Assembly (NCBI RefSeq): GCF_022814725.1
Contig: NZ_CP093442.1
Span: 558,001-622,000 of the forward strand
Direction of reading: 5' to 3'
Source: Bdellovibrio reynosensis
GTDB lineage: Bacteria; Bdellovibrionota; Bdellovibrionia; Bdellovibrionales; Bdellovibrionaceae
Length of the DNA: 64,000 nt
Shown here: positions 877 through 64,000 of the stretch, one piece after another
Position numbering within the stretch: position 1 is the stretch's first letter
Layout: every line of letters starts with the position of its first letter
Program-made: the position numbers and the translations under genes
The notes under the pieces: generated by a model
What the model saw: only the letters and a program-made list of their open reading frames with translations
The model's database searches: none
What the model was told of the DNA's origin: nothing

Positions 877-886
877 GGGTCGGTTA

Positions 887-2476: not shown

Positions 2477-2503
2477 TTCTATTTGCCTTTCTTAGTTGAG
2501 AGC

Positions 2504-4108: not shown

Positions 4109-4165
4109 AAATGTTCCAGTCTTTCGTTGTTGTTGTTCAAAATAAAATTAAAAATTAATGCAGCA

Positions 4166-5848
4166 CTATTTCAGATAGTTCTTATCTAGTGCGATTCCCA
4201 TTTCTTTAGCGCCGTATGTGATCACTTCGAAATTGCGATCCAAAAATCCTGGGGATTTTTTCAGCTTAAGAATGGAAGTAGACCAGCCTGGCACATCATA
4301 AGAAGCAAGCTTTTTAGCTGTTCCGTTTTTGAGATAGATTTGCACTGTTTGCGTTACCGGCGTTTTGTTGATCAAAAGCAAGTTCACATCTGTAGCGGTT
4401 TCTGTAGCGTAAGAATTGACTTTGTCTGCCAAGTTATCTTCAGCAGCCACAACCGTTCCTTTGAAGTTATTGCTGATTAAAGAATAGGTGTGAAAGATCG
4501 TCGTTTTGTTTCCACCTTCGATCATGGACCAAGGAATGTTGCTTCCACCAGCGCTATTTAGAATAAAGTTATTAAAGAAGGCAACGCCCTCTTTAGCTGC
4601 GATTGCAACAGAGTCCGCAATATACAGTGGACGAACGATAGGATGATAGTGAGTCGTTCTGTAATCAGAATCCACTGCGAATTCATTGATCGCAAGTTTC
4701 GCATTTGGATAATACGACTTAAGCCAACTCTTCATTCTTGGGATGATGTTAGGGCTTACATTTCTATAGGAACTTCTGTCGATGGTGTTTACATAGTTCG
4801 GGTCATGCAGAACGCGTGTTGCCTCTAGCATTTTTGTAACAGCTTGAAGACCGTCAGCTTCTTTGATGATGGAATCAAGGTTTTTATTATCTTGTCTGAA
4901 CATCGGGTAGTAATGGAAAGCGAAATAATCTAAAAGTTTATAGCCCTTCGGATTGATCGATTTATCTTTTTCAGCCTTTGCAAGGCGATTTAAGAAATAA
5001 GGGATGAAATGAGTAAATGCGCCATCGCCATACGAACAAGTCACTTGGCCTCTGATGGTATGGTGATATTCGCAGTCGGTTGTGAAGTTGCCGGTATTCC
5101 AGTCTAACCAAGAAGCGGAAATTTCAGGGCCCCAGATTTTAATGCTGTTTGGATTGCCATTTACTTCTTCCTGAGCCTGGCGAATAGCAACAGCATATTC
5201 AATATACCTTGCGATGTATTCATCAGCAGAAATCCCACTATCTTCAGGGAACTCTTTAGTGTGAGCGTGGGTTTCATGCCACTGTTCAAACTCATTGCCT
5301 AAGCTGAAGTTCACTAGGCCCAGATTCAAGTCGCCATTCAGGGTTTTAATTAATTCGTAGGCAGATTCTGCCGTGAAAGATTTTTTCAAGCCAACGGACT
5401 TAATGCTGACTGAGTCGTTTGAAATTTCTGGCTGATAGCCATGAAGGTTGATTTGATAGATGCCTGTCACTTTGTAAGTGTTCAAGGCAGTGACGATTGC
5501 TGGAATTCCTAGGATGTTTTTTACGCCGTGTTTTGTGTAAGTAAGATTGTTTTTCCAGTTGAATACATCGTACTCGTTTCCGCCGATACGGATGGCCCCG
5601 ATACCTAATTCAGAAACCAATGCCGGTGAGGGAAGTTTTGAAAAAGAGTCTAAGTGAGATCCATAGAAAGAGCGGTCGATTGTCTGCCCTTTTGTTCCTA
5701 GGTCGATGGTCACTTTCCCAGTGACGGCTTTATTTTCAGTCGTATTGTAGGGTTGTTGCGTGCGATCGACCCCAGCGCAACACGCTAGAGTTGAGGATAA
5801 AAGAATGCAGGCAAAGATCGACCCTTTGAGCGCAAAAGTACTTTTCAC
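4166..5848 (-). CDS. Exported GH44-like glycoside hydrolase (paralogue 2), possible lipoprotein
   Basis: A 560-residue paralogue of the protein at 887-2476. It shares GGN-x-FNW (near 89-98), IKIWGPEIS, FHYYPMFR and the C-terminal layout. The start is GTG, preceded by AGGAC. The N-terminus is a hydrophobic signal ending in LACC near residues 21-24, which could be a lipobox, though the -3 position is not ideal. The acid/base motif reads GNEF (E186) instead of GNEP, and the nucleophile motif reads INEF (E389) instead of TEF; both glutamates are kept, so activity is plausible with altered specificity. It is probably the first gene of a three-gene minus-strand unit of exported proteins. Confidence 0.68.
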   Translation of the reverse strand: MKSTFALKGSIFACILLSSTLACCAGVDRTQQPYNTTENKAVTGKVTIDLGTKGQTIDRSFYGSHLDSFSKLPSPALVSELGIGAIRIGGNEYDVFNWKNNLTYTKHGVKNILGIPAIVTALNTYKVTGIYQINLHGYQPEISNDSVSIKSVGLKKSFTAESAYELIKTLNGDLNLGLVNFSLGNEFEQWHETHAHTKEFPEDSGISADEYIARYIEYAVAIRQAQEEVNGNPNSIKIWGPEISASWLDWNTGNFTTDCEYHHTIRGQVTCSYGDGAFTHFIPYFLNRLAKAEKDKSINPKGYKLLDYFAFHYYPMFRQDNKNLDSIIKEADGLQAVTKMLEATRVLHDPNYVNTIDRSSYRNVSPNIIPRMKSWLKSYYPNAKLAINEFAVDSDYRTTHYHPIVRPLYIADSVAIAAKEGVAFFNNFILNSAGGSNIPWSMIEGGNKTTIFHTYSLISNNFKGTVVAAEDNLADKVNSYATETATDVNLLLINKTPVTQTVQIYLKNGTAKKLASYDVPGWSTSILKLKKSPGFLDRNFEVITYGAKEMGIALDKNYLK

Positions 5849-5984
5849 AAAAACGTCCTAGATAAAATTTTGGTAAAAATTTTTTTACAATTAGCGCCGG
5901 ATTAATAGAGGGGGCCGAAGAGAAGGGCAAGGACGAAAAAGAATTTACAAAAAATTAACAATTGATAAACAATGTATGAAGAAA

Positions 5985-6014
5985 TTTCACGGCCCCTATT
6001 AAAAGTCCGTGAAA
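5985..6014 (-). terminator. Hairpin downstream of the 6033-6866 gene
   Basis: TTTCACGG (5985-5992) pairs perfectly with CCGTGAAA (6007-6014) across a 14-base loop, 18 bases past the stop codon of the minus-strand gene. On the minus strand it is followed by TTTCTTC, a weak U-tract. It is probably a terminator that separates this gene from the glycosidase operon. Confidence 0.45.
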
Positions 6015-6032
6015 CTGCAGTGAGCTAATTAA

Positions 6033-6866
6033 TTACAACCAAAAACAAGTTGTTAAGACGTAAGCTGATTCGGAATCCTTATAGAGCTGCAATGATTTTG
6101 CAAAAGGATGCTCTTGGGTGATTCCCAACGATACGGTTCCATGGTCTCCAATATCTAAGTTCACAAGAGTTTCAAGAGTCGAAAAATCGGTGCGCTTTTC
6201 TTGTTCAGAAGTCTGCGCATTATAGAACATGTTCTTTAAACCTAAACCTTGAGATATCGAAACCTTATCACCAAAATATTTATTCAAACGAAGCCACTGT
6301 TCAAGCTGTGCAAGTTGAGTCGGTTTGCTTTCATATGATGTTTTACTTTGAACCAAAACAAAGGCCTTTGGAAAGTATCCGAAAGAAAAATGGGGGCTGA
6401 GTTGTTTTGTAAATTCATAGCTCGCGCCAAGTCCACCAACCGTGTTTTCTTTTATCCACGCAGGATCTGTGTGTAATAAAAAACGATAAACTGCCTTGGA
6501 TCTTACCGATTCGAAATCAAAGGGTTTTCGATCCACAAGGTCAATACTTGAATCGCCCCAACGCGTCTGCGCTGGCATCATCGCGCCGTACCGCAGACCT
6601 TTTGAGTCGTAAGTGAAAGTGGGGCGCAGGGCTGCTGTGAAGCGGGAATCAAGACGGTATCCTAAGGCAATCAAGTTGTAAGAATAAATGCTAGCTTCAC
6701 CTTCTTTAACATCTGAAGCCTGACTTGAGATGTATCCGAAGTAGCTAAGAGCGATTTTATCAGTGGAAAAATCACTGGTCAGGGATGCCGACAACGCGGA
6801 TGTGTTTACAGAAGCTGAGGCGGAAACTGAAAATATTAATAGTGCGAGAGAGATTAAGTATTTCAC
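6033..6866 (-). CDS. Exported protein, probably an outer-membrane beta-barrel or surface protein
   Basis: I chose GTG at 6866 because GGAG lies six bases upstream; an in-frame TTG at 6878 would add four residues and overlap that Shine-Dalgarno. The 277-residue product starts with a short hydrophobic signal ending ASAS. The mature part has many alternating aromatic/polar strands (LSYFGYISSQ, AALRPTFTYDS, SPHFSFGYFPKAF, VSLGITQEHPF) and ends in a hydrophobic segment finishing with Trp-Leu, typical of outer-membrane barrels that end in an aromatic residue. No known family recognised. It is monocistronic, with a hairpin behind it, and divergent from the LRR gene. Confidence 0.65.
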   Translation of the reverse strand: MKYLISLALLIFSVSASASVNTSALSASLTSDFSTDKIALSYFGYISSQASDVKEGEASIYSYNLIALGYRLDSRFTAALRPTFTYDSKGLRYGAMMPAQTRWGDSSIDLVDRKPFDFESVRSKAVYRFLLHTDPAWIKENTVGGLGASYEFTKQLSPHFSFGYFPKAFVLVQSKTSYESKPTQLAQLEQWLRLNKYFGDKVSISQGLGLKNMFYNAQTSEQEKRTDFSTLETLVNLDIGDHGTVSLGITQEHPFAKSLQLYKDSESAYVLTTCFWL

Positions 6867-7074
6867 TGCATTCTCCAAAGGATCCGATTTGATTGTGGAA
6901 ATTTACCTTGTTCGGGCGAGGACTTATAGAGGTCTGAATGTAAGCTGTAAAGTTTTTAAAAACTGTGTCCAGAGTTTAGACACCTCAGTCATTTTTCTTA
7001 AAGCGCATTCTGCCTCTTTCTATTTCGCCCGAGCTATGTAAGTATCTGCCATTCTTGAACGTCCGAGGAATTTT

Positions 7075-7980
7075 TTGAAGCAGTTGCTTATTCATTTCAT
7101 TTTTCTAATCATCTTGTCTCCTGCGTTGGCAGAAGTGCGCATTGATATTTGCGATCGTGGAGTCATTGGCGCTGCTATTGTAAAGGCTGTTTCAGAGGTG
7201 AATTGCAAAGAAGTTTCCGTTCAAAAAATGCGCGCGCTTGAAAGTCTTGTAGTTGCTAATCAAAATATTGATACATTACCCCCAGGCGTTTTTGCAGGAT
7301 TAGACTCTTTAAAGTCACTAAATTTAGAATCAAATCAGATCAAGATTCTCGACAGAAATGCTTTTCAAGGACTGTCGCAATTAAAAGTTCTGCGTTTAGA
7401 TCACAATCATCTGACTTCGATTGATGCTCCGGTTTTTGCTAGATTAATTTCTTTGGAAGTGCTTGATGTTTCTTTTAATCGTTTGCACAGGATTTCAGAC
7501 GATGGTTTTTCAGGATTAAATTCTTTGATTGAGTTGCGAGCCAATCAAAATCAGATTTCAGAAATTCCTAGCCTGTCGGGGTTATCTTCTTTAAGAAGTT
7601 TGAACCTTGAGCGTAACTCATTAACCCAGATTCGCAGTTTAAAAAGGCTATCAAGCTTGGCGTCAGTGAAGCTTTCGCACAATCAAATTCAAAGAATCGC
7701 AGTAGGGGCGTTTCAAGATCTTCCCTCACTGATCTTTATGGATTTACGTTTTAATCAAATTTCTAAGGTTCAGCCGTGGTTTTTAAGAACAGAAAATTTA
7801 AAAACTTTAGCCTTGGATAATAATAAGATCTCTGCGATTGAGCGTGATTCTTTTTTAGGTCTTCCAAACTTAGAGGAGATTTCTTTTTACGAAAACCAAA
7901 TCACTGAATTGTGTCGTCATTATGTGGGGCTTAATGACTCTGTCCATATTGGTGGAGTCACCCTAAAGGATTGCCCGTGA
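7075..7980 (+). CDS. Exported leucine-rich repeat protein
   Basis: The start is TTG, chosen because GAGGA lies about five bases upstream and the next residues form a signal peptide (KQLLIHFIFLIILSPALA). The 301-residue product then has Cys-flanked ends around roughly eight LRR units of the L-x-x-L-x-L-x-x-N-x-I/L type (for example LKSLNLESNQIKIL and LKVLRLDHNHLTSI), covering about residues 55-275. The repeats look like the 24-residue extracellular class with G-L in the F-x-G-L position. Such proteins are protein- or glycan-binding surface scaffolds. Its stop codon overlaps the GTG start of the flippase gene (GTGA), which ties it by translation to the polysaccharide locus. Confidence 0.88.
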   Translation: MKQLLIHFIFLIILSPALAEVRIDICDRGVIGAAIVKAVSEVNCKEVSVQKMRALESLVVANQNIDTLPPGVFAGLDSLKSLNLESNQIKILDRNAFQGLSQLKVLRLDHNHLTSIDAPVFARLISLEVLDVSFNRLHRISDDGFSGLNSLIELRANQNQISEIPSLSGLSSLRSLNLERNSLTQIRSLKRLSSLASVKLSHNQIQRIAVGAFQDLPSLIFMDLRFNQISKVQPWFLRTENLKTLALDNNKISAIERDSFLGLPNLEEISFYENQITELCRHYVGLNDSVHIGGVTLKDCP

Positions 7981-9491
7981 TTCAGAACGAAGGTAAATCC
8001 CCAGAAAGATTAATATTCTTGGCGGGTGCAAGAATCTTTGGTTTGATTTTTTCTTTCCTTATTCCCATGTATTTGGGGCGCCACTTAGAAGTAGAAACCT
8101 ACGGGACCTATAAGCAAGTGATGCTGATTTTCTGGTTTTCGCAGGTTGCCCTTAACTTCGGGTTCGACGATTCGGTGAACTACTTCCTTCGTTGGGATCG
8201 TAAGAACTTTTCCTTATATGCCTTCAATGCACTGATCTTTAACTTCGTCGTGACTTCGCTGTTAGCATTAGGTCTTTCCATTTATCGTGTTGAAATTGCT
8301 GGTCTGCTAAACAACCCTGATCTTGCCCAATACATACCGCTTCTGGGTTTATTAATCGTTGTTTCTATTTCCTCAGCCCAAGTCGAAGGATTTTTAATTA
8401 ACTTAAACCGCTTTAAAGCAAGATTGTATCTTGACGCGGGTACAGAGTTTCTAAAGTCCGTCGCCATCCTGTCGGGTTTTTTATTCTTTCATTCCATCAC
8501 AGTGGCTTTGATCTTCCTAGTGTTCTTAATGGTCCTTCGCTTTGTTTGGATGTTGTCTATCCTACACAGCCATAAAGTAGAGCAAGGCCTGCGTTACAAG
8601 GACGCGGGCGGGTTCTTTAAGGCCCAAGCCAGGTTTGGTGTGCCTCTAGGGATCTCTCGCATTATTCAGAACATTCTGAATATGGAAAATCTATTTGTCT
8701 CATCGTTCTTTAGTGTCGTCCAATTTACTTACTATTCAGTAGGTTGCTTTGAAAATCCCCTGATCAACTCCGTAAGGGCCTCGCTATACGAATTAGTGAA
8801 TATTGATCTGGTTGATAATGTGAAATCAAAGGACTTTGATAAAGCGGCACAGACGTGGCGCCAGATGAATCGCACTCTTTTTTTAATCGTAATTCCGTTC
8901 ACGGTTTATATGACCTTCTTTGCTAAAGAAATCATCGTCTTCATCTTTTCGGATAAGTATCTAGCCAGTGTTCCGTTCTTTATGCTGTTTAATCTGTACG
9001 TGGTCGTAACCTGTTTAAATCCAGAGCCTTTATTTAGAGCCACCTCCAATACCGGCACCGCTCTTAAGATTAAAGTCTTTGGAGTGGTTATGGGCTTAAT
9101 ATTAATTATCGGTGGTGCTTATTGGTTTGGGCCCATGGCCGTACTGGTTGGTAAAATCATCGCCGTGGCATTTATAAATATCTCGGGACTTATTATCGGA
9201 GCGAGATTTATTCAAAGCAAAGCTAGAAACTTATTTGTATGGCGTGATCTGGCTTTGGCGCTGGCTTTATCAACAGTGCTGTCAGCTTTGATCAAGTATA
9301 TTTTCTTGGAATATCAATGGTACCCATTCTGGATACTTGCAGCTTCCTTCAGTCTTTATTTCTTAGGGATGTTTGTTTCAGGGGTAAAAACAAATTTGAT
9401 TAAGACCCAAGAAGTTGAATACGTGCAAAAGTTTGTATTTAAGATAGTTCACAAATTAAATCCTCTCAAAGGAAGGGCCTACAATGGTTAA
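7977..9491 (+). CDS. Polysaccharide flippase, Wzx/MATE-like
   Basis: An integral membrane protein of about 504 residues with 12 or more hydrophobic segments, typical of the oligosaccharide flippase family that moves lipid-linked repeat units across the inner membrane. GTG at 7977 is preferred: AAAGGA lies six bases upstream and the start overlaps the LRR stop as GTGA. A TTG at 7971 is in frame but leaves no room for a ribosome site. N-terminal motifs (GARIFGLIFSFLIPMYLGRHL, then YGTYKQ) are family-typical. It overlaps the next gene by eight bases. Confidence 0.88.
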   Translation: MIQNEGKSPERLIFLAGARIFGLIFSFLIPMYLGRHLEVETYGTYKQVMLIFWFSQVALNFGFDDSVNYFLRWDRKNFSLYAFNALIFNFVVTSLLALGLSIYRVEIAGLLNNPDLAQYIPLLGLLIVVSISSAQVEGFLINLNRFKARLYLDAGTEFLKSVAILSGFLFFHSITVALIFLVFLMVLRFVWMLSILHSHKVEQGLRYKDAGGFFKAQARFGVPLGISRIIQNILNMENLFVSSFFSVVQFTYYSVGCFENPLINSVRASLYELVNIDLVDNVKSKDFDKAAQTWRQMNRTLFLIVIPFTVYMTFFAKEIIVFIFSDKYLASVPFFMLFNLYVVVTCLNPEPLFRATSNTGTALKIKVFGVVMGLILIIGGAYWFGPMAVLVGKIIAVAFINISGLIIGARFIQSKARNLFVWRDLALALALSTVLSALIKYIFLEYQWYPFWILAASFSLYFLGMFVSGVKTNLIKTQEVEYVQKFVFKIVHKLNPLKGRAYNG

Positions 9492-10638
9492 AAAAATTCT
9501 GATTGTAGCTCTTGCTGAAAAATGGACTGGCATCAGTCGCTTGCCTGGGGGGTTGAAGCGCGCGGGATTTGATGTCTATGCCTATGCGCCTAAAAACAGC
9601 TATCTTGCTAAAACAAGTTTTCTAAATGGAAGAATGCTTTATCCGACATTTACTTATGCTCGTTCAAAAGTCGTCTATCTGGGCATAATCCTATCGATCC
9701 TTCGGTTACGTCCTGACTTGGTCGTCCCCGGCGATGAAGATGCTCTTCTAGCGCTACAAGCATTAGCGAAATTCCCATTGATAGGAAAGAAAATCACTTC
9801 TTCTTTACCTGGTTATACAGATCCCTCGGTGCTTTTAAGTAAATCCAAGTTCGTTGCAAAGTGTGCAAAATGGGGCGTACGCGTCCCTAAAAATATCGAA
9901 GTTAAAAATTTGCAGGAAGCTTTAACCGCAGCACCACGTTTAGGGTTTCCTCTGGTGGTCAAGTATGACTTTGGTTATGGCGCTTCGGGCGTGGAAGTGG
10001 TCCATAACGAAGAACAACTTATAAAATCACTGTCATCAACGCAGAAGGTATCGCTTGTCACAAAAATAAAAAGAGTCATCAAAACTCTTCTATTTGTCGT
10101 GCCCAAGGACGATGAAAACGGTCTGTCGTTGCAACAATACATCTCAGGTCAGGTGGGTTTAGCTCCGTTTTGCGCCCAGAATGGTGCTGTTTTTGCCGCA
10201 AATCCGATGCTGAAGCATAAGACCTACCCTGGGGCTACGGGTCCATCTAGTGTTGTTGTGGGCGTTGATAATCAAGAGATTCACCAGGCCATTCTAACTG
10301 TGGCAAAGAATTTAAGTTATACAGGTTTTGGATCTTTGGATTTTATAGTTGAACAAAAAACCGGAGAGGCCTATGTGATTGAACTTAATCCGCGCCCGGT
10401 CCCCACTGTTCATTTTGATTCTGATTTATGCGCCCAGGATTTGTGCGCGTCTTTTTACAAAGGTTTAAATAAACAATTCAAACCACATGATTCAGGCGCA
10501 CCGTTGTATAAATCCTTCACAATCGCACTTTTTCCCAATGAGAAAAGAAGGGATCCGCAGAGCCCTTACCTTACTCAAAGTTATCACGATATTCCTAAAG
10601 ATGATGAAGTCCTGATGGAAGCTCTAGACAGGAACTAG
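9484..10638 (+). CDS. ATP-grasp ligase in polysaccharide locus
   Basis: A 384-residue ATP-grasp enzyme. The central region shows the lysine and glycine-rich loop (VKYDFGYGASGVEVV, around residues 158-172), and the C-terminal part has the Mg-ATP motif (FIVEQKTGEAYVIELNPRP, near 285-305) with Glu and Asn ligands. These enzymes join a carboxylate to an amine or similar nucleophile through an acyl phosphate. In this locus it may attach an amino acid or other carboxylate to a sugar precursor; that role is inferred. AAAGGAAGG precedes the ATG. It overlaps the flippase by eight bases and the convergent deacetylase by 15. Confidence 0.82.
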   Translation: MVKKILIVALAEKWTGISRLPGGLKRAGFDVYAYAPKNSYLAKTSFLNGRMLYPTFTYARSKVVYLGIILSILRLRPDLVVPGDEDALLALQALAKFPLIGKKITSSLPGYTDPSVLLSKSKFVAKCAKWGVRVPKNIEVKNLQEALTAAPRLGFPLVVKYDFGYGASGVEVVHNEEQLIKSLSSTQKVSLVTKIKRVIKTLLFVVPKDDENGLSLQQYISGQVGLAPFCAQNGAVFAANPMLKHKTYPGATGPSSVVVGVDNQEIHQAILTVAKNLSYTGFGSLDFIVEQKTGEAYVIELNPRPVPTVHFDSDLCAQDLCASFYKGLNKQFKPHDSGAPLYKSFTIALFPNEKRRDPQSPYLTQSYHDIPKDDEVLMEALDRN

Positions 10639-11529
10639 AGCTGGTGTGTTCGCGAAACGGTATTCTGCCACTGTGCGAGTTCTGTTTAATCTCAACAGAT
10701 TTTCCATCGTTGTGAATTCGAAATCATTCAATAATTGAACGAACTTTTCACGATTGCTATTTAAACCCACATAATGACGGAAGCGCTTTAAAGGTGGCAG
10801 TTTCACTCGTGGTTGACCTGGGTCGAACTCCCATGGATGGAAGTACATAAGGGCCGGACCTTTTTCGAGATCTTTTCTAAGAGCCGCTTTCGTCAGCGCA
10901 TATGGCAGCATTCTAAAGTATCCGCCTCCGCAGACAGGAATATTTGCTCCTAATAATAGAGGACTCTTTTTTAACGGAAGAACAGTCATTCCATTCACTT
11001 CTGTTTGTATTGTCGGAAAGTCTTGGATCCCATAATCAGGGTGGGAAGTGACGAAAATACTGCTGTCGTATTCTAAGCCACACTCTTTCATGATAGGCAA
11101 AGCCCATGAAGTTTTTTGAGTTACAGAAAAGCTAGGTGCACGAAATCCTTTGATTTTCTTACCCGTCACATTTTCAAGGTGGGTCAGGGCTTTGGTTAAG
11201 TCTTCTTTGAAACTTTCTGGCGTTAACAAGTCGATAGGAGTGTGATTGTACCCATGACAAGCAATTTCATGCCCTTGATCACTGATCCTTCTAACGACTT
11301 CTGGGTAATTATCAGCAATCCAACCTAAGACGAAGAACGTGGCTTTAATATTCTTTTTTGCAAGCTCTTCTAGAATGAAATCCACCCCGATATTCAGGCG
11401 ATTTTCTTGGTTGTGCCATTCGTTTTCATTAATAAGTTCCCGCATATTTCTGACGGTAAACCAGTCTTCAATATCAAAACTAAGCGCGATCGGATTTTTC
11501 GGTTTAGAAGTAAAGTTCAACATATTCAT
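10624..11529 (-). CDS. Polysaccharide deacetylase (NodB fold, DUF3473-type)
   Basis: Metal-dependent carbohydrate esterase-4 fold protein of 301 residues. The metal/catalytic residues are visible: D19-I-E-D22 (SFDIEDWF) and H92-x3-H96 (CHGYNHTPID). The C-terminal part has FHPWEFDPGQPR, the hallmark of the deacetylase subfamily found in exopolysaccharide loci. No signal peptide is seen, so it probably acts at the cytoplasmic face or on lipid-linked intermediates, removing N-acetyl or O-acetyl groups. Its start overlaps the end of the upstream glycosyltransferase gene by 26 bases, so the two are co-transcribed. Confidence 0.9.
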   Translation of the reverse strand: MNMLNFTSKPKNPIALSFDIEDWFTVRNMRELINENEWHNQENRLNIGVDFILEELAKKNIKATFFVLGWIADNYPEVVRRISDQGHEIACHGYNHTPIDLLTPESFKEDLTKALTHLENVTGKKIKGFRAPSFSVTQKTSWALPIMKECGLEYDSSIFVTSHPDYGIQDFPTIQTEVNGMTVLPLKKSPLLLGANIPVCGGGYFRMLPYALTKAALRKDLEKGPALMYFHPWEFDPGQPRVKLPPLKRFRHYVGLNSNREKFVQLLNDFEFTTMENLLRLNRTRTVAEYRFANTPALVPV

Positions 11530-12595
11530 CCACCATCTTTTTGAGAGAATAGTTTTTTAAGACGACATCGCGTGTTTGTCCCATTAAAATATTCAAATCC
11601 GGTTTTTGTTGCGAAAAGTTTTTTAAGAGTTCAAACAGCGCACGTTCATTAGCTAAATTGAAAAGTTCGATCACACCGTGACTTGTTTCTTTGTGAGGAG
11701 CGATATCACTGCAAATGCAAATCTTTTCAAGCGCCATGGCCTCAAGTACCGCTACCGGATGACCTTCTTGCAGTGAAGAGCTTACAAAGAAATCACCTTT
11801 TGCTAATACAGCGCGCGGATCTTCCATGAAACCATAGAAGGTCACTTCAGATTCAAGCCCGTGGTCCGTGACGTACTTTTCAAGGTTTGCTTTTGTCGAA
11901 GGTAATTTGGATGTGCCCGCGTGATGAAATTCAAATGGGATCTGATGTTCTTTTAAAAGACGACATGTGTTCAACAGATAGTCCAAATTTTTTTCATAAG
12001 AAATTCGGCAGACACTGACTAATTTCAGAGGAGAAAAGGTGATAGTTTTAGATTTGTCTGGAGTAAACAAATTCGTATCAACACCGTTTGGAATAACCCT
12101 TAACGCCTTTTTATTAACTGCAGGACAGCCCCCAATGATAGAATCTTTAACGTGTCCAGAAACACAAATAATACATTTGTAAAGGTAGCTCGCAGCCTGA
12201 AAAAAGTAGCGATAGCTTTTACGTGCAAGAAAATGGTGGACTGTATGCTGAGTATGAATGAGTCGAAGATGAGGAAAGCGCACTTTTAATAAAGTCGCAT
12301 ACTCCATGGGGCCGAAATCGTGCGTGTGAATAGTGTCGATCTGATGTTCTTTTACGACACGAATAAGTTCGCGGACTAAATTCCAATCGCGGCCAGATTT
12401 TTTTTTGAAAGTAAAAACAGGAAAGTCTCTGTCGCTGATCGCTTTGCCAATTCCACCCAGGGTTTCAGTTTCGTAAGTAAAAAAGTGCAACTGTGCTTCA
12501 TCACCCGTGTTTAATGCGAGCTGTTCAAGAAGGCGTTCGATGCCTCCTAGATACAAGTATTCGACGAGATGTAACACTTTTTTTGAAGTTTTCAT
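11504..12595 (-). CDS. Glycosyltransferase family 4
   Basis: A 363-residue GT-B glycosyltransferase. The N-terminal domain begins with a GG-I-E-R loop (LYLGGIERLLEQL), typical of GT4 acceptor domains; the C-terminal donor-sugar domain has LVSVCRISYEKN and the E-x7-E motif in LQEGHPVAVLEAM, which binds the nucleotide-sugar. It should add a sugar to the lipid-linked repeat unit at the inner face of the membrane. It is first of a two-gene minus-strand unit with the deacetylase and is divergent from the next glycosyltransferase across 154 bases that must hold both promoters. The donor sugar cannot be read. Confidence 0.88.
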   Translation of the reverse strand: MKTSKKVLHLVEYLYLGGIERLLEQLALNTGDEAQLHFFTYETETLGGIGKAISDRDFPVFTFKKKSGRDWNLVRELIRVVKEHQIDTIHTHDFGPMEYATLLKVRFPHLRLIHTQHTVHHFLARKSYRYFFQAASYLYKCIICVSGHVKDSIIGGCPAVNKKALRVIPNGVDTNLFTPDKSKTITFSPLKLVSVCRISYEKNLDYLLNTCRLLKEHQIPFEFHHAGTSKLPSTKANLEKYVTDHGLESEVTFYGFMEDPRAVLAKGDFFVSSSLQEGHPVAVLEAMALEKICICSDIAPHKETSHGVIELFNLANERALFELLKNFSQQKPDLNILMGQTRDVVLKNYSLKKMVDEYVELYF

Positions 12596-12749
12596 AAGGC
12601 GGCAAACCTACCAAACGAACTGGTTATTTAGAAATAAAAAGCCTGTAATTGTAGTTGTTCTATGGCGTCGTGTTTCGCCAAGGAATGTTTACTTTTCCTG
12701 CAAACCTTTTTGCAAGTGTTTCGGATTTCTACTAAACCTCTCTTTCACA

Positions 12750-13907
12750 ATGAAAAAGCTGGTTTTCGTATCATCCATTCAAGTATTTCCCCCAATGTCG
12801 GGGGGGCAGTTGCGAAGCGCGAATCTTTGTCGTGCGTTGGCGAAGCTTGGTTATGATGTTTCAATCTATTCTTTGACGGGCCGTAAAGAGCAGTACTTAA
12901 ACCAAACTCAAAGTTTTCAGCAAGATGTTGAACCGGGTGTTACTGAGTTTGTGAACATGAATCCCTTGTTTGGATTCGTTCAATTTTTATTTTATCGCTT
13001 GAATCTGCCGCCTCTTTGGGTGACATGGATTTTAAAAGTTTTGATTCCCATGGAATTAAGAAAACTTTTGTCTGATTCAGAACTTGTTGTTCTGGACTTT
13101 CCATTTCTTCATCCGCTGTTCAAAAAAATAAAAGCAGAAAAATGGTTGAACACCCATAACGCTGAATTTGAGCTTTGGAAGTCACCCTTTGTAGCATCTT
13201 GGGTAAAGCGGGTAGAGCTTTCAGCACTAGCTCAAGCAGATAAAGTTCTTTTTTGTAGCGAAAAGGATTTAGAGGTTTTTCTTAATCTAACTCCAGAAAT
13301 AAAAAGCAAAAGCAGCATTGTTAGTAACGGTGTAAACCTAGCTAAATACCAAACGGATCCGGCCTTACGTATTCAAGTTCGCCAACAATGGAATGCTGAA
13401 AATAAAAAAGTATTTTTGTTCACCGGTTCAAGTTATGAACCTAACCGTGAAGCCTTCGCGTTTCTAAAAAGGTTTTGCGCCGAAAATAGAAATGCATTGA
13501 AAGAGTTAAATGTCCTTGTTCTTGTTGCGGGAACAGTTAGCATAGAAAAAATAGAAGAGGATCATTTCAAAGTTCTTGGACGGGTGGAAGATCTAATTCC
13601 TTATTTTGCCGCCAGTGATTTTGGTTTAAATCCAGTCACTGAAGGGTCTGGAATGAATGTGAAGATGATTGAATATATGGCTGCGGGATTACCTTTAGTA
13701 TCCACATCTTTTGGGTGCAGAGGTTTAGATCTTACCCACGGCGAAAGTGTTTTTACATTTGAGCGCCAGAATCTTTTAGAGGCAATTAGAAATGTTACGT
13801 GCTTATCCGTAGAGAGGCGCCAACAACTGACGCTGAACGCGTTCAATCAGAATGAAAATCGAATTGATATGATGAAAGCCTTGCAGATGACAGGATTGAA
13901 ATTATGA
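12750..13907 (+). CDS. Glycosyltransferase family 4
   Basis: I start this gene at the ATG at 12750 (KKLVFVSSIQVFPPMSGG), a normal GT-B N-terminus with the glycine-rich loop. The open frame extends upstream, but that part overlaps the divergent gene and is low complexity. The 385-residue product has the C-terminal domain motif EGSGMNVKMIEYMAAGLP, where the first Glu and a downstream Glu form the usual nucleotide-sugar site. No good Shine-Dalgarno is visible before 12750. The stop overlaps the next start as ATGA, opening a five-gene overlapping chain through 18193. Confidence 0.86.
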   Translation: MKKLVFVSSIQVFPPMSGGQLRSANLCRALAKLGYDVSIYSLTGRKEQYLNQTQSFQQDVEPGVTEFVNMNPLFGFVQFLFYRLNLPPLWVTWILKVLIPMELRKLLSDSELVVLDFPFLHPLFKKIKAEKWLNTHNAEFELWKSPFVASWVKRVELSALAQADKVLFCSEKDLEVFLNLTPEIKSKSSIVSNGVNLAKYQTDPALRIQVRQQWNAENKKVFLFTGSSYEPNREAFAFLKRFCAENRNALKELNVLVLVAGTVSIEKIEEDHFKVLGRVEDLIPYFAASDFGLNPVTEGSGMNVKMIEYMAAGLPLVSTSFGCRGLDLTHGESVFTFERQNLLEAIRNVTCLSVERRQQLTLNAFNQNENRIDMMKALQMTGLKL

Positions 13908-14647
13908 AGCAGTTTTTTGTGAAACATAAAACCACAGTACTTACGACTTTGGCATTCGTGCTAGTAGCTTTGATTTATTCATTGGTAACGCCAAAGGTAT
14001 ACCAGTCGTCCAGTCGCGCGGTTGTCTTTCGTATGAAATTAGAAAGTCCTGATGGCGCAACTGAGGAATCCCGCAACCGGTGGATTTGGGTTCGCGATGG
14101 TCTTAGCATTTCAAGTGCTTTAGTTTCTGATGAAATGCTTAAAAAATTTCTTGAAGAAAATGAACCTGCTAAAGCGGCCGTTCAAGGCTTTAAGTCGCTC
14201 GGTTCGCAAATGAATTTTCTTAGACGTATGGTCAAGATCCAATACACTGGGGGCGATGAAAACAACTATATCATCGAAGTGAAGTCGTCGAATCAAGAAT
14301 TAGCGTTAGACTTGAATAAGTACGTTTTCAATAACCTTCGTTTCTTGGTCATTGAAAAAGATCAAAAAGACTATGAAGCATTGTTAGCAAAGGTGCAGGC
14401 CGAAGCCTCTGGTAATAATGCCGGCGAAAAAGCTTACTTCCAAGATAAACTTGTTAAGTTAAAATTTGAGCACCTGGTAAATCAGGCACAAAAGGAAAAC
14501 CTTTTTCAGACTATTTCCGAACCCGCTGTCAGTGATCGCCCTGTGTGGCCTAAGCCACTAGCATTAGTAGTCGTGGCGCTGCTTGCAGGAGTGGTCTTTG
14601 GGTATCTTTTAGAATTTCTTTTATTTTATTTTAAAAACCAAAGATGA
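13904..14647 (+). CDS. Polysaccharide co-polymerase (Wzz-like chain-length protein, no kinase domain)
   Basis: A 247-residue inner-membrane protein with one transmembrane segment near each end (about residues 10-30 and 217-240) and a long, mostly helical periplasmic domain between. This is the layout of Wnt/Wzz polysaccharide co-polymerases. The Pro-rich stretch before TM2 (PVWPKPLALVV) is the expected signature. No Walker motifs follow TM2, so it lacks the BY-kinase part found in many exopolysaccharide systems. It is linked by four-base overlaps to a glycosyltransferase before it and a Wzy-like polymerase after it, which supports a role in controlling chain length. Confidence 0.8.
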   Translation: MKQFFVKHKTTVLTTLAFVLVALIYSLVTPKVYQSSSRAVVFRMKLESPDGATEESRNRWIWVRDGLSISSALVSDEMLKKFLEENEPAKAAVQGFKSLGSQMNFLRRMVKIQYTGGDENNYIIEVKSSNQELALDLNKYVFNNLRFLVIEKDQKDYEALLAKVQAEASGNNAGEKAYFQDKLVKLKFEHLVNQAQKENLFQTISEPAVSDRPVWPKPLALVVVALLAGVVFGYLLEFLLFYFKNQR

Positions 14648-15888
14648 ATCTGAAAGCCTTAAGCCTGCATAACAGCGCAGTCTTTAAACCTGTATGGGCG
14701 GTGCTCCTATACATGGGGCTTGCTATTACCACTCTTCATCTTGAAGTGCCGTTGTTAGTGTCCATTCGTTTAGAACTACTTTTATTTGTTTCTGCATTAA
14801 GTTTAACGGTTTTACAACAGGTGTTGAATCGCGAAGAGACTTTTTCTTTTACGCACAGTCTAAGCATCCCGGTTTTTTTAATTGGCCTTTATGCGCTATC
14901 CCCCCTTTTCGCATCGGTATTTTCTGGCGGCGAGCTGCTGATTCTTAATGACCCTGAATATAAAACCCTACTTAAAATTTTATTTCTTGGTCCGGCAATT
15001 TATCTGGTTCTTTCTAAGCCGCGGTATCGAAACCTGATTTTGAATTCGCTGGTTCTGTCTTATTCTATTCTGGGGGTTTATTTTCTTTATCGTTATCTTG
15101 TGTTGCATGAAGCAAGGGAATTTGACTTAAGGCCTTTGCTGAATATTCGCCATGGGGACCCTAATTTTCTATGCACTTTCTTTTCAATGACTCTGCCGTT
15201 AGCCTTATTGCAGGCTTGGCAGGCTTTTTCGCGCCACAAGTCAACGCAAGGAGTGATGTTTTTAACGGCGGCATTGTTTCTTGGAGCATGTGCTATAATT
15301 ACTCAATCTAGAATGGGATTGATAGCCTTGTTGCTAGGGCTGGGAGTTTTATTCTGTCGAAGAATTACACATCACCCTAAAGAAAGCCGGTTTAAGCTTC
15401 TTGTTGCACCGTTGGTTTTCGTTTCGTTACTATTTGCTTTCTTAGCCACCGACGTTGCAAAACGCTTCACAGAAATCAAAGACAAATCAAATCTAGATCG
15501 ACTTTTGACCTACGATAACGGGTTAAAGGTTTTTTCGGATCATCCGGTCTTCGGTGCGGGAATGCATCAGGCAAAGAATTTCTTTTACCAAAATACCAAC
15601 TATCCGCACTTTCAGTCTGAAGTCAGACCCTTAGAAATTCATAACACCTATTTAAATGTTTTAGCGGAACTAGGTGTGATAGGTTTCGCAGCTTTTGCTG
15701 GTTTTTTTATTTGGTGTTTCTGGGAAATTTCGAAATGCGCAGGGCCTGTTCGACATTATTTGTTTGCCTCTTACGTTGTGTTTCTTGTTTCAGGTTTTGG
15801 TGTAGGGATGTCCTACAAAGACCTTTTTATTCTGCATTTTTTTGTGCTAGCGGCTGTGGCTAAATCATATAGGGACGTTTTGCGATGA
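14644..15888 (+). CDS. O-antigen polymerase/ligase family (Wzy/WaaL-like)
   Basis: A 414-residue multi-spanning membrane protein with about ten hydrophobic segments. The large periplasmic loop carries the Wzy_C signature: RLLTYDNGLKVFSDHPVFG with GAG after it, and IHNTYLNVLAELGVIGF, where the His-Asn pair is typical. Such proteins polymerise lipid-linked repeat units or ligate chains to an acceptor in the periplasm. Beside a flippase and a co-polymerase, polymerase is the more likely role. Four-base overlaps (ATGA) join it to both neighbours. Confidence 0.87.
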   Translation: MNLKALSLHNSAVFKPVWAVLLYMGLAITTLHLEVPLLVSIRLELLLFVSALSLTVLQQVLNREETFSFTHSLSIPVFLIGLYALSPLFASVFSGGELLILNDPEYKTLLKILFLGPAIYLVLSKPRYRNLILNSLVLSYSILGVYFLYRYLVLHEAREFDLRPLLNIRHGDPNFLCTFFSMTLPLALLQAWQAFSRHKSTQGVMFLTAALFLGACAIITQSRMGLIALLLGLGVLFCRRITHHPKESRFKLLVAPLVFVSLLFAFLATDVAKRFTEIKDKSNLDRLLTYDNGLKVFSDHPVFGAGMHQAKNFFYQNTNYPHFQSEVRPLEIHNTYLNVLAELGVIGFAAFAGFFIWCFWEISKCAGPVRHYLFASYVVFLVSGFGVGMSYKDLFILHFFVLAAVAKSYRDVLR

Positions 15889-17036
15889 TACTTATAGAGT
15901 TTTTGTTTTGGATGTTATTTGCAGCGATTTGCCTTCATTACGCTGGATTTGGATTGATAGTTCTAGGTCTGGCAAGACTTTTTCCTAAAAAGCATAAGAC
16001 CGCTGAAATCTATCCTTCTGTTTCGTTCATTATTGCCGCCTATAACGAAGAAAAAATCATTCGCGAAAAAATTCGCAACGATTTAAAGTTAGACTATCCC
16101 AAGGATAAACTAGAAATCATTGTTGTCTCTGATGGATCTTCTGACAGCACACCGCTTGTTGTAAAAGAATTCGCTGAACAGGGTGTAATTGGACTTTATG
16201 AAGCTCCTCGCAAAGGCAAAACCGCCGCGTTAAACCGTGCTGTGGCTTTAGCTCAAGGCGAGGTTCTAATATTTTCAGATGCCAATTCAATGTTTCGCCC
16301 GGACGCCATTAAAAAATTAGTTCGACATTTTGCTGACGAATCCGTTGGCGGGGTGTGTGGACGTAAAAGTGTTTTAACCCATGGGGACCGTAAAGCTTCG
16401 TTGGGGGACAATTTATATTGGCACTATGAATCGGCTTTAAAGCAGGCAGAATCGCACTTAGGTTCCATTCCGACAGCGGATGGCGAAATCTTTGCGCTTA
16501 AAAGAAGTCTTTACCAAACTGTCCCGACTGAATTTATCAACGATGACCTTGTGATTACTTTTAATATTATCGAACAGGGTAAAAGAGTTATTTACGATAA
16601 AGAAGCCATCACAGAGGAACAAGCTTCGATCACTTTGAAAGATGACTTTAATGTGAAGTCGCGCATGGTTTATGGTGGGATCCAAGTGATCATGGCGTAC
16701 AAAAAACTTTTATCGCCTTTTGCCAGTTGGTTTGGATTTCAGTTTTTCATTCACAAGACGTTGCGCTATTTTATGTGGTTGTTGTTAGCAAGTATTTATT
16801 CCTTCAGTGCGATGTTGACCCCGGCGCATTGGTTTTATGAGATTTTCTTTTTGCTTCAGACCGCGTTTTATTTTATGGCCCTTATAGGTTATGTCCTGGA
16901 TAAAAACGGAAAAAAAGCGGGACCTTTTTATCTGCCTTATTACTATTGCAATGTAAACTTCGCAGCGGCCAAAGGTTTTTTATTTTTCTTAAAACAAAGA
17001 TCCACGGTGGACATCTGGAAAAAGGCGCAACGGTGA
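15885..17036 (+). CDS. Membrane glycosyltransferase family 2
   Basis: A 383-residue processive-type GT2. It has an N-terminal membrane segment, a GT-A domain with IIAAYNEE, VVSDGSSD, GKTAALNRAV and FSDANS (the DxD-equivalent), an acceptor-side INDDLVI motif, and three or so C-terminal transmembrane helices. The usual QxxRW of processive synthases is replaced by KSRMVYGG, so processivity is uncertain. It may transfer a sugar to a lipid carrier or extend the glycan while embedded in the membrane. It is coupled to the next gene by a GTGA overlap. Confidence 0.87.
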   Translation: MILIEFLFWMLFAAICLHYAGFGLIVLGLARLFPKKHKTAEIYPSVSFIIAAYNEEKIIREKIRNDLKLDYPKDKLEIIVVSDGSSDSTPLVVKEFAEQGVIGLYEAPRKGKTAALNRAVALAQGEVLIFSDANSMFRPDAIKKLVRHFADESVGGVCGRKSVLTHGDRKASLGDNLYWHYESALKQAESHLGSIPTADGEIFALKRSLYQTVPTEFINDDLVITFNIIEQGKRVIYDKEAITEEQASITLKDDFNVKSRMVYGGIQVIMAYKKLLSPFASWFGFQFFIHKTLRYFMWLLLASIYSFSAMLTPAHWFYEIFFLLQTAFYFMALIGYVLDKNGKKAGPFYLPYYYCNVNFAAAKGFLFFLKQRSTVDIWKKAQR

Positions 17037-18193
17037 ACTTGAAAAACGATCTTTTAACAGGGCAGGACCTTATTGTTTTTGGCGAGGACTTCGCCCGCCA
17101 TCCACATTCTTTAGAACATCTTTTACGTCCTTTATTTGGCATAAATAAAATTATCTGGGTTGAAACCATCGGACTGCGCTCGCCAAGATTTTCGGTTTAT
17201 GATCTTAAGCGTATTTATGGAAAGTTAAAAGGATGGTTTGGGCCTAAAAAACCCAGCGAAGTCCGCCTTGTGCCTCAGGATTTTTGGATCGTTGCACCAT
17301 TAATGATTCCGTTTAATCAGTGGAAGTTAATTAGAAGTTTTAATACTTGGAGTGTGAAAAGAGCCGTTAATAAAGTTTTGCGCGAACAAGGTTTTAAAAA
17401 TCCCATCACAGTGACTTCGGTCCCGAACGCATGTGATTATGTCGGGGAGTTTGCGGAAAAGTTAAAGATTTATGTGTGTGTCGATGAGTTTTCATTATGG
17501 CCGGGTCTAGATTATAAAATGGTGCAAACAATGGAAGCTAAATTGCTTTCGAAAGCCGATGTCGTGTTTGCCACATCAGAGTCGTTGAAAAATAATAAAT
17601 CGAACGGTAAAAAAGAAACCATTCTTCTTACCCACGGTGTTGATTTTGAACACTTCAACATCGGTTCAAAGGCGTTTTCAGAGAATTTAAACATCTGCTA
17701 CTTTGGACTTTTAGATGAAAGAAGTGATCAAAGCATTATCCAGACTATTGCCACCCAGTCACCTGCGGTGAAAATACACATTATTGGTAATGTCGTGTGT
17801 GACGTAGAAAAACTTCGTGCATTTAAAAATATCATTTTCCATGGTCCCGTGGGCTACAGGGCACTTCCTGATGCGATCAAAGAGATGGATGTGTTCATCT
17901 TGCCTTATGTAAGAAGTGAACTGACAGAAAATTTAAACCCGTTAAAATTAAAAGAATATCTATCCACGGGAAGGCCTACGATTGCGACACCTCTGCCAGA
18001 GGTTGTGAAGTTCAGCGAGCATTTGATTTTAGCCCATGACGGAAAAGAATTCGTCTCAGCCATTAAAAATCTTAGAAAATTCGATAGCGCAAAAAGTGCT
18101 CACACCATTGAGATGTTGAAGAGCAACGAAACCTGGCAGGCTAAGGCCCGCATTTTTTCTAGACATACGTCACTGCACTTGGGTGTGAACTAG
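17033..18193 (+). CDS. Glycosyltransferase (GT-B, TuaH-like)
   Basis: I chose GTG at 17033, which overlaps the previous stop as GTGA; the frame is open 29 codons further up but only inside the preceding gene. The 386-residue protein resembles GT-B enzymes of the teichuronic-acid TuaH type: DEFSLWPGLDYK, a central TSESLK segment and THGVDFEHF before the C-terminal domain, then NPLKLKEYLSTGRPTIATPLPEV with the nucleotide-sugar glutamate. It is last in the overlapping chain. No strong terminator follows before the solute-binding gene 74 bases on. Confidence 0.83.
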   Translation: MNLKNDLLTGQDLIVFGEDFARHPHSLEHLLRPLFGINKIIWVETIGLRSPRFSVYDLKRIYGKLKGWFGPKKPSEVRLVPQDFWIVAPLMIPFNQWKLIRSFNTWSVKRAVNKVLREQGFKNPITVTSVPNACDYVGEFAEKLKIYVCVDEFSLWPGLDYKMVQTMEAKLLSKADVVFATSESLKNNKSNGKKETILLTHGVDFEHFNIGSKAFSENLNICYFGLLDERSDQSIIQTIATQSPAVKIHIIGNVVCDVEKLRAFKNIIFHGPVGYRALPDAIKEMDVFILPYVRSELTENLNPLKLKEYLSTGRPTIATPLPEVVKFSEHLILAHDGKEFVSAIKNLRKFDSAKSAHTIEMLKSNETWQAKARIFSRHTSLHLGVN

Positions 18194-60497: not shown

Positions 60498-61382
60498 TTA
60501 GGATTTAAACGAATCTGCAAGCGCGATATCGCGCACGATTCCGCCGAAAGGACCGCAGTAAACGCTTTCCTCTAACCAGACCATCTCGCTAGATAGTTCG
60601 TCCTTAAAAATAATTTTTGCCCAAAAGCGATTTACATTGTCCCACGAATAACCGCGTCCCTTTAAAAATTCTTTGGATTCAAAAGGGGCACTGCTAGCAA
60701 TAACATGGGCCATTGGTCTGCGTGCATTGTGCAAAAGTTCCGCAAGGTAAGGTTGATTATTTTTACCAGGAAGGCTGATGAGATATAACAAGGCATCCAC
60801 ATCGTTGATCGCGCGATGAGAGTCGGTAAAAAAACCGTGATAGACATTTAACAACTCAAGTTTGGAACTGGTAAAACCTTGACCATTCCAGTTGACCTGT
60901 TTCACTGAACAACCCCAAATTTTTTCTTTTGATATTGATGATTTTCTATCAATGAACGGGCGATCAAAGCGCGCATTGTGGGCGATGATCAAGCTGGCTT
61001 GTTCCAAAAGTTTATTTACTTCCGCCCAATCAATATTTTTTCCTGCGACCATTTCATCAGTAATGCCTGTAAGTTCCGAAATCTCTGCAGAAATAGCCAC
61101 GCTGGGATCTTGGAAGGAACTGTAGGCGGCTCCCAATTTTAAAACTTCACCGGTGTTGCGATTAAAGAAAAATTGGCGCATTCCAATTTCAATAATCTTG
61201 TCTTCAGATTGGTTTAAGCCGGTGGTTTCCACATCAAGCACGATTCCGATTCTTACAAGGTCGGCGTTGTTCTGCATCCAAGTATCCGTTGCATAGGCCG
61301 GAGTGGCAATAGGGCAGCCCTCAAGACGCTGTAGGGTCACTGTTCTGCCATCATCTGATTTTCCTAACCAACGGAATGCCAT
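60498..61382 (-). CDS. DnaQ-like 3'-5' exonuclease (DEDDh)
   Basis: A 294-residue exonuclease-fold protein. Exo I is in VLDVETTGL (Asp, Glu), Exo II in IIAHNARFD (Asp), Exo III in HRAINDVDALL (His and Asp), so it is DEDDh. It has an N-terminal extension of about 45 residues and a C-terminal domain after residue 210 with a Trp-rich stretch (GRGYSWDNVNRFWAKI), like stand-alone DnaQ-like exonucleases of unknown pathway. Likely acts on DNA or RNA ends. Not DNA polymerase III epsilon by context. Confidence 0.85.
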   Translation of the reverse strand: MAFRWLGKSDDGRTVTLQRLEGCPIATPAYATDTWMQNNADLVRIGIVLDVETTGLNQSEDKIIEIGMRQFFFNRNTGEVLKLGAAYSSFQDPSVAISAEISELTGITDEMVAGKNIDWAEVNKLLEQASLIIAHNARFDRPFIDRKSSISKEKIWGCSVKQVNWNGQGFTSSKLELLNVYHGFFTDSHRAINDVDALLYLISLPGKNNQPYLAELLHNARRPMAHVIASSAPFESKEFLKGRGYSWDNVNRFWAKIIFKDELSSEMVWLEESVYCGPFGGIVRDIALADSFKS

Positions 61383-62193: not shown

Positions 62194-62227
62194 AAAAGGG
62201 AAGCACTTGCTTCCCTTTTTTTTTTTT
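62192..62227 (+). terminator. Bidirectional rho-independent terminator
   Basis: GGGAAGC (62198-62204) and GCTTCCC (62209-62215) with an ACTT loop, flanked by A6 upstream and a long T run. It serves the plus-strand pair and the convergent MEDS gene. Confidence 0.93.
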
Positions 62228-63110
62228 ATTGAAGACTTCTTAGATTGCTTGAAATCGCAGCCAAGGTCCGAGCGCTCTTTTCAATTTCCAATAACGAAAT
62301 GTCATCGTTTTTTGTTGTCTTTAATTTATCAACCGAAGTTAGGATTGAAGATAAAGAAATTTTAAGCGCCCCACTAAGATTTTCTAGCAGGGTTTCATTT
62401 TGAATTTCGGCGTTGGTAGTAACCTTTAAAAGATCATTTTCGATATCACGGAGCGCTCGCTCTGTAGTTTTTCTTTGCGCAACTTCATTTTGCAATAGCA
62501 TCGTTTTGTATTGGAATTGTTGAATTAGCAACTTTTGCAAGTCTTCATTAGAATTCTCAATATCATCAGCAGAAATAATGTGATCATGACTGCAGCACAC
62601 TTGATTTAAACTTTCGCCGCCCTTGTCGCTAACGAATGCGCCGTTGTGATAGCCGCACAGAAGAGAAAAATCTCGGGTTAAAGAGAGTTCATTCCACAGT
62701 CCTTCAAGAGCCAAGGTGGCCTTAGGATTATTGCCCTTCATTAAAACGTTGACCATCTCGCCATAGGCGCGAACTGCTGGGAACTGCGCAATTTTTTGAT
62801 CAAGAAATGAACCGATGTGGTTCAGGAATAAATCTTTGTCTGGCATCCCATCAACCATAAACTTTGCAAGAGTTTCTTGGGCATCTAAGATGCAAAGCTG
62901 TGAACGTTCCAGCGCGGAAGCAGTATCAAAACCCAAGTGATTTAAGTGACTGCGGAAGGCTTCGAGATGTTCCTTGGTTGCCACGAGGATGACGGCTTCG
63001 CCGTTGAGCAGACCCGTGATGATAAAGTTAGTGACCGTCTTTACTAGTTGAGTATCGCGATCATACAAATGCAAAAAATGGCTTTTCTTTGAATTTTTGT
63101 CTTTCAACAT
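62226..63110 (-). CDS. MEDS-domain sensory protein with degenerate kinase-like tail
   Basis: A 294-residue protein. Residues about 10-170 match the MEDS (DcmR-type) sensory domain: HFLHLYDRDTQLVKTVTNFI, then EAVILVATKEHLEAF and YGEMVNVLMKGNNPKAT. The rest is a coiled coil (about 195-245) and a four-helix stretch (250-294) that looks like HisKA, but the phospho-acceptor position reads LSGALKISLSSI with Gly where His would be, and there is no HATPase domain. It may dimerise with a kinase or act as an adaptor. It is divergent from the ethylene-receptor-like kinase at 63301. Confidence 0.78.
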   Translation of the reverse strand: MLKDKNSKKSHFLHLYDRDTQLVKTVTNFIITGLLNGEAVILVATKEHLEAFRSHLNHLGFDTASALERSQLCILDAQETLAKFMVDGMPDKDLFLNHIGSFLDQKIAQFPAVRAYGEMVNVLMKGNNPKATLALEGLWNELSLTRDFSLLCGYHNGAFVSDKGGESLNQVCCSHDHIISADDIENSNEDLQKLLIQQFQYKTMLLQNEVAQRKTTERALRDIENDLLKVTTNAEIQNETLLENLSGALKISLSSILTSVDKLKTTKNDDISLLEIEKSARTLAAISSNLRSLQ

Positions 63111-63300
63111 GGGTATAAATTAGTAGACCAAACAGGTGGCAGTTGGAAGAAAGAATTCTCACATTTAACAAATGTAATATGGCGTGTTGAAGTTTTTCAG
63201 ACCGTTTATTGTTTTCTAAAGGAGCTATGTAACAATACATGAGTCCTTCTCTAAGTCCGCGCCATATAATTCCAACTTATCAAATTGCGCGGAGGCATAA

Positions 63301-64000
63301 TTGAACTCCTTTTGGGACTTTTTTTCAGAGCAAAACTTCATGCCCCATGGTCATTGTTTCTTATGGCAGCCCATTTTACTGGGCATTCATGCAATCAGTG
63401 ATCTGCTTATTGGCTTAGCATATTTAGCGATCTCACTAAGTCTATATTTTATAGTCAAACGAATACGTATCCCTTTTTCTGCGGTGATGTTGGCATTTGG
63501 TACGTTTATCGGAGCCTGTGGACTGACTCATTTTATGGAAATTTGGAATTTATGGTACACCGACTATTGGGCGAGCGGATTCGTAAAAATTGTTACTGCT
63601 GCCGCCTCGGTGATTACTAGTATTTGGCTCATAAAGCTAAGACCCCAGATTTTTACAGTAGCAGAAGCAGCTAAATTGGCAGAACAAAGAAGACTCGATT
63701 TAGAAGCCATTACAGCGGACCTTGAAACCAGAGTTGAGCAACGAACTCGAGAATTAAATTTAAGTAAAATCGAAACAGAGCAGGGTGCGCGCAGCCTTCG
63801 TGTTGTTATCGATGCCTTGCCATCACTGATGGCAGCTGTGGATCCATGGGAACGATATGAAATTGTCAACGAGGCTTATGCTAACTGGATGAATAAAGAT
63901 CAAGAATTTATTCTTGGAAAAACGTTGTCAGAGATAATGCCCTCGGACCTCTATATGAGAATTAAACCGCATTTTTTAAAGGCACTTCAGGGAGAACAGC
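63301..64000 (+). CDS. Ethylene-receptor-like sensor kinase, 3' end cut by window edge
   Basis: TTG at 63301 with GGAGG five bases upstream; the frame stays open to the window end (233 residues). Residues 1-110 form about three helices with PHGHCFLW, then AISDLLIGLAYLAISLSLYFIV, and CGLTHFMEIWNLW. These match the ethylene-binding domain of plant ETR1 and cyanobacterial SynEtr1; the C-x3-H pair (Cys and His in CGLTH) is the copper/ethylene site in ETR1 and is kept. A helix near 115-125, a coiled coil about 130-165, and a PAS domain from about 170 follow (VVIDALPSLMAAVDP). The kinase part must lie beyond the edge; calling it a kinase is inference. Confidence 0.8.
   Translation, partial: MNSFWDFFSEQNFMPHGHCFLWQPILLGIHAISDLLIGLAYLAISLSLYFIVKRIRIPFSAVMLAFGTFIGACGLTHFMEIWNLWYTDYWASGFVKIVTAAASVITSIWLIKLRPQIFTVAEAAKLAEQRRLDLEAITADLETRVEQRTRELNLSKIETEQGARSLRVVIDALPSLMAAVDPWERYEIVNEAYANWMNKDQEFILGKTLSEIMPSDLYMRIKPHFLKALQGEQ

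Follow-up and report, generated by a model that had tools for sequence, protein, structure and literature searches.

The 64,000-nucleotide stretch of DNA analyzed here (the window; C1:558001-622000 of the single-contig, 3,582,323-bp genome of Bdellovibrio reynosensis, Bdellovibrionota) ends inside a gene for a hybrid histidine kinase with an N-terminal membrane domain of the ethylene-receptor type. It belongs to a well-supported clade that lacks the proline found at position 36 of the plant receptor AtETR1. With moderate confidence, we suggest that the protein is a membrane sensor that uses Cu(I) to detect ethylene or a similar olefin, its affinity or preference being altered.

The receptor gene starts with TTG at 63301 on the plus strand and is open up to the end of the window; adjoining DNA (L002) beyond position 64000 was added to complete it. 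The complete product, obtained by extending the reading frame in the whole genome, has 814 residues and is encoded by the sole ETR1_N gene that a Pfam search detects in B. reynosensis. The relevant features of the window, all on the plus strand, are the following.

63291..63295, Shine-Dalgarno sequence GGAGG, 5 nt upstream of the TTG start, as read from the sequence
63301..64000, 5' part of the ETR1_N hybrid histidine kinase gene, 233 of 814 codons, the remainder being at L002:5001-6746
63343..63366, PHGHCFLW motif, residues 15-22, ahead of helix 1, with a single Cys (C19) as in cyanobacterial receptors (PMC6682694)
63376..63657, ethylene-binding domain ETR1_N, residues 26-119, from Pfam and the AlphaFold2 model
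63394-63432, helix ISDLLIGLAYLAI, residues 32-44, from the translation
63433..63435, Ser45 codon TCA, aligned with the essential Pro36 of AtETR1
63517-63546, CGLTHFMEIW, residues 73-82, from the translation
63517..63531, Cys73-x3-His77 (codons 63517-63519 and 63529-63531), presumed Cu(I) ligands corresponding to C65/H69 of AtETR1 (PMC6586836)
63811..64000, beginning of the first PAS domain (PAS_4, residues 171-278), from Pfam

The original prediction of an ethylene-receptor-type sensor was built on three ETR1-type peptides, PHGHCFLW, the helix ISDLLIGLAYLAI, and CGLTHFMEIW. All three are present in that order and the C-x3-H spacing is confirmed. The profile search proposed as a check bears this out: the 233 residues encoded in the window match ETR1_N (in Pfam, 'Ethylene receptor 1-like, N-terminal domain') far above chance, with E = 2.4e-29 and 101.9 bits against a curated cut-off of 27, and the 814-aa protein does so with E = 2e-28, the score being 99-102 bits over both searches. 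Extension past position 64000 yielded the HisKA and HATPase domains that were expected there, and also a receiver. The domain order is ETR1_N (26-119), PAS_4 (171-278), PAS_9 (305-402), HisKA (424-489), HATPase (538-654), and receiver (689-799), and all domains clear the Pfam cut-offs comfortably (HisKA, 2.4e-18; HATPase, 1.1e-25; Response_reg, 1.9e-25). The kinase core is intact, with SHEIRTP at 433 and the NxxGNA, DTGPGI, and GGTGLGL boxes. The protein thus has the HisKA domain with SHE[IL]RTP, the HATPase boxes, and the receiver that characterize a hybrid histidine kinase.

Seven residues of AtETR1, D25, Y32, I35, P36, I62, C65, and H69, were scored as required for ethylene binding, Y32 being reportedly among the required ones in the work of Wang et al. 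from 2006. The comparison was made with what we take to be the AtETR1 sequence, whose residue numbers match those cited in papers. By alignment, six of the seven are kept in the receptor (D34, Y41, I44, I70, C73, and H77), including both copper ligands, Cys65 and His69 of AtETR1, and so are the equivalents of K91 and S98 (K96 and S103). The seventh, P36, is replaced by S45, a change that the original prediction had not remarked on, and the alignment around it is ungapped (AYLAIS-LSL in the receptor versus AYFSIP-LEL). P36L is among the dominant receptor mutations known from plants and is also the tomato Never-ripe lesion. Against ethylene binding stand the facts that P36, together with I35, I62, C65, and H69, is among the AtETR1 residues essential for it (PMC6586836), that P36L belongs to the gain-of-function receptor mutations of squash (PMC8012379), and that the receptor has Ser at this position. 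Ser is, however, a milder change than Leu. An ETR1_N kinase with the copper pair is supported. The claim that the organism may sense ethylene is plausible, but it is qualified by the Ser at position 36 and by the absence of P36 throughout the clade. The receptor would be expected to work like an ethylene receptor; ethylene binding itself is not to be assumed, given the missing proline.

The distribution of this substitution was traced in a tree of 88 ETR1_N domains gathered from Bdellovibrionota, Verrucomicrobiota, Alpha- and Betaproteobacteria, Deinococcus, and cyanobacteria, the proteobacteria, Deinococcus, and cyanobacteria being sampled through their plasmids. The family scored over the cut-off in 60 of 369 Bdellovibrionota genomes and in 20 of 289 Verrucomicrobiota genomes. 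One branch with support 99/97 unites 25 of the sampled domains, and position 36 within it is Ser in 21, Ala in three, Thr in one, and Pro in none, whereas Pro occupies it in 59 of the 63 domains outside the branch. Leaving column 36 out does not dissolve this branch: its 25 rows stay together with support 99/92 and in 100% of 200 bootstrap trees. Further markers of the clade, given by AtETR1 position, are G at A29, G at G59, F at L70, M at I71, W at L85, and A at V97. Its members come from Bdellovibrionota (the window, G017, G224, and others) and Verrucomicrobiota (Opitutaceae), and the cyanobacterium Kovacikia and Deinococcus contribute a single domain each. Outside it lie P-type domains from Azospirillum and the other alphaproteobacteria sampled, the rest of the cyanobacterial set, and many of those from Bdellovibrionota. 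Judged by the sampled sequences, Ser at position 36 is a feature of the clade rather than an oddity of this receptor. In one member of the clade (L056, G353), Phe replaces the copper ligand Cys65; this natural site-less variant could be used as a control.

Since the receptor belongs to a distinct clade, it probably departs from AtETR1 in affinity or in the ligand it prefers. The change could go further, so that clade members retain the fold and the copper site but sense Cu(I) status or another small ligand (for instance, CO, NO, or acetylene-like compounds) and bind ethylene poorly or not at all. The loss of P36 across the whole clade, accompanied by changes at the A29, L70, I71, and V97 positions while the metal residues are retained, would fit such a shift, as would the origin of the members from lineages without an evident common link to plants. 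However, the other six essential residues are retained, and Ser is small and may still permit binding, so that we regard this alternative as possible but on the unlikely side. In its broadest form, which we consider doubtful, the clade would be a separate family of Cu(I) membrane sensors, descended from ethylene receptors, with a non-ethylene ligand, and spread horizontally over at least four phyla including bacterial predators. We think it likelier that ethylene or a similar olefin is still bound than that the ligand is another one, because Ser is the milder substitution and the other residues are conserved.

The membrane domain is the most constrained part of the protein. Between the receptor and its relative in G017, identity is 74% in the ETR1_N domain (dN 0.18, dS saturated), 58% in the linker, 42% in the first PAS domain, 64% in HisKA-HATPase, and 63% in the receiver. 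The ETR1_N domain is thus the best conserved part and is under stronger constraint than the remainder; the possibility of a decaying gene was rejected on the same grounds. An AlphaFold2 model, based on a 60-row alignment free of sequences from plasmid records and with a mean pLDDT of 93, predicts the three transmembrane helices of an ETR1-type receptor (residues 24-54, 60-85, and 89-149), the third continuing into a long linker helix. No solved structure close to the ETR1_N domain was found by sequence, and a Foldseek search with the domain model gave no match at E <= 0.001.

A kinase of G005, a member of the same genus (L050:3390-5723, minus strand), has a PAS-PAS-HK-REC transmitter about 47% identical to that of the receptor, preceded by a DUF4118 (KdpD-type) membrane sensor where the receptor has ETR1_N. 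On the sequence evidence, this is a case of sensor swapping on one chassis. Synteny of this gene with the receptor locus was considered and dismissed, as the flanks differ. Since inputs to homologous transmitters are swappable in this way, the membrane domain of the receptor could now be chiefly a structural anchor and dimerization unit, with sensing left to the PAS domains. A passive anchor would be expected to show the opposite of the observed conservation, in which the ethylene-binding domain is the best conserved between species and the first PAS domain has only 42% identity. This explanation therefore seems improbable to us.

Other Bdellovibrionota contain split systems, in which a stand-alone ethylene-binding domain of approximately 123-140 aa is encoded within a few bases of, or overlapping with, a separate histidine kinase gene. 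They were found in five genomes of one clade, with the following pairs of genes.

L134:4055-4477 and 4452-5840
L135:434-805 and 792-2732
L136:3165-3560 and 3566-4624
L137:3593-3997 and 3957-5714
L138:3625-4026 and 2185-3624 (minus strand)

The kinases of these systems carry a hydrophobic N-terminal domain of their own without a matching Pfam family. A sixth stand-alone domain, in G028 (L139:3644-4009), falls outside the clade of the other five.

The receptor locus is accessory and was probably acquired. By Pfam search, an ETR1_N gene is present in only three of 24 members of the genus, and the neighborhood of the receptor is wholly different in G017 and G224. In G018, G001, and G020, only about 1.5 kb lies between a conserved exonuclease gene and the gene for a 302-aa protein that follows it; in B. 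reynosensis, about 10 kb separates the exonuclease gene (60498-61382) from the 302-aa gene, and this interval contains small genes, the MEDS gene, the receptor gene, an SRAP gene, an M48 peptidase gene, and a gene for an OmpR-type regulator. A search for phage carriage of the receptor gave no match. The OmpR-type regulator lies approximately 3 kb downstream of the receptor (L002:9717-10457), and we make no claim of partnership, because no such gene occurs near the receptor copy of G017. The only P-type ETR1_N gene seen in the genus belongs to G004 (L047, minus strand); a TAG interrupts its frame after the PHGHC motif and ahead of helix 1, which may indicate a pseudogene, a later start, or a sequencing error.

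The MEDS gene (62226-63110, minus strand) is transcribed divergently from the receptor gene, with about 190 bp between them, and its MEDS domain is clear in Pfam (E = 1.8e-23). This arrangement underlies the suggestion that the two genes form one circuit. MEDS is lacking in all 23 other members of the genus, including G017 with the closest receptor, and adjoins no other ETR1_N locus examined; the suggestion is thus very unlikely to hold. The C-terminal part of the MEDS protein, ENLSGALKISLSSIL, gave no Pfam match; by eye, it resembles a HisKA dimerization helix without the phospho-accepting His.

A plant-associated life had been proposed from glycoside hydrolases at the other end of the window. 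The GH5 gene (E = 8.5e-37) and two GH44 genes (within 7-18193) are genuine, but this argument is weak, as the GH44 genes adjoin an exopolysaccharide cluster. Their neighbors (7971-18193) include a flippase, one or more glycosyltransferases, a polysaccharide deacetylase, and ligase-like genes, all except the deacetylase being named by eye from their translations, and one GH44 protein weakly matches EpsB of known exopolysaccharide loci. A role of these genes connected with exopolysaccharide is likelier than plant association.

Returning to the preferred reading, in which the receptor depends on Cu(I) to sense ethylene or a similar olefin, we modeled its mechanism on AtETR1 and AzoEtr1, by analogy with which the receptor should dimerize, hold Cu(I), bind its ligand, and signal through helix 3. 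In this predatory soil Bdellovibrio, it would serve as the hybrid kinase of an accessory two-component phosphorelay. In the dimeric membrane domain, each subunit would carry one Cu(I) at C73/H77, midway across the membrane, and would there bind a ligand that is small and hydrophobic, ethylene or a similar soil olefin being the likeliest. The genome encodes a copper P-type ATPase that scores over the curated family cut-off; like almost every bacterium, the organism can thus handle copper. Helix 3 (with K96) and the coiled coil would relay the change to the PAS domains and so set autophosphorylation of H434, from which phosphate would pass to D737 and then to a putative separate Hpt protein and response regulator.

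Ethylene-receptor-type sensors have been predicted for many bacteria (PMC7700396, PMC11819568), and AzoEtr1 of Azospirillum brasilense, which binds ethylene, is a proven receptor outside cyanobacteria (PMC11819568). The non-cyanobacterial sensor announced by the original prediction is thus real but not new in kind; what merits further attention is the clade without P36 and its presence in a bacterial predator. In the titles and abstracts searched, no paper ascribed an ethylene receptor to Bdellovibrio itself. A natural, constrained clade with Ser, Thr, or Ala at this position in several phyla allows one to test directly whether Pro36 is needed for binding or rather for signaling. A further question is what use a predator of bacteria would have for tracking a gas that roots, soil microbes, and decaying matter give off.

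Compared with known systems, the receptor is closest to the G017 protein of the same genus (L046:5920-8085), which belongs to the same clade, has Ser at position 36, and is 74% identical in the membrane domain and about 63% in the kinase and receiver, but has one PAS domain fewer and lies in an unrelated neighborhood without MEDS. AzoEtr1 (A. brasilense Sp7, L040) is likewise bacterial and non-cyanobacterial, with ETR1_N ahead of PAS and histidine kinase domains, the C/H copper pair, and the D, Y, I, I, and K residues. It differs in having all seven residues including the Pro that is Ser45 in the receptor, and in its single PAS domain and lack of a receiver of its own, a response-regulator gene overlapping its end, where the receptor has two PAS domains and its own receiver. 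The receptor has in common with SynEtr1 and the GeiEtr proteins a single N-terminal Cys and an N-terminal segment of about 30 residues ahead of the domain (PMC6682694), but the published GeiEtr1 and GeiEtr2 keep all seven residues (PMC6682694) and the receptor keeps six; SynEtr1 is additionally a UV-A photoreceptor. Finally, AtETR1 has the same order of membrane domain, kinase, and receiver and the same Cu(I) Cys/His site, whereas it has Pro36, a GAF domain where PAS follows the membrane domain in the receptor, and two N-terminal Cys residues forming a disulphide in place of the single C19.
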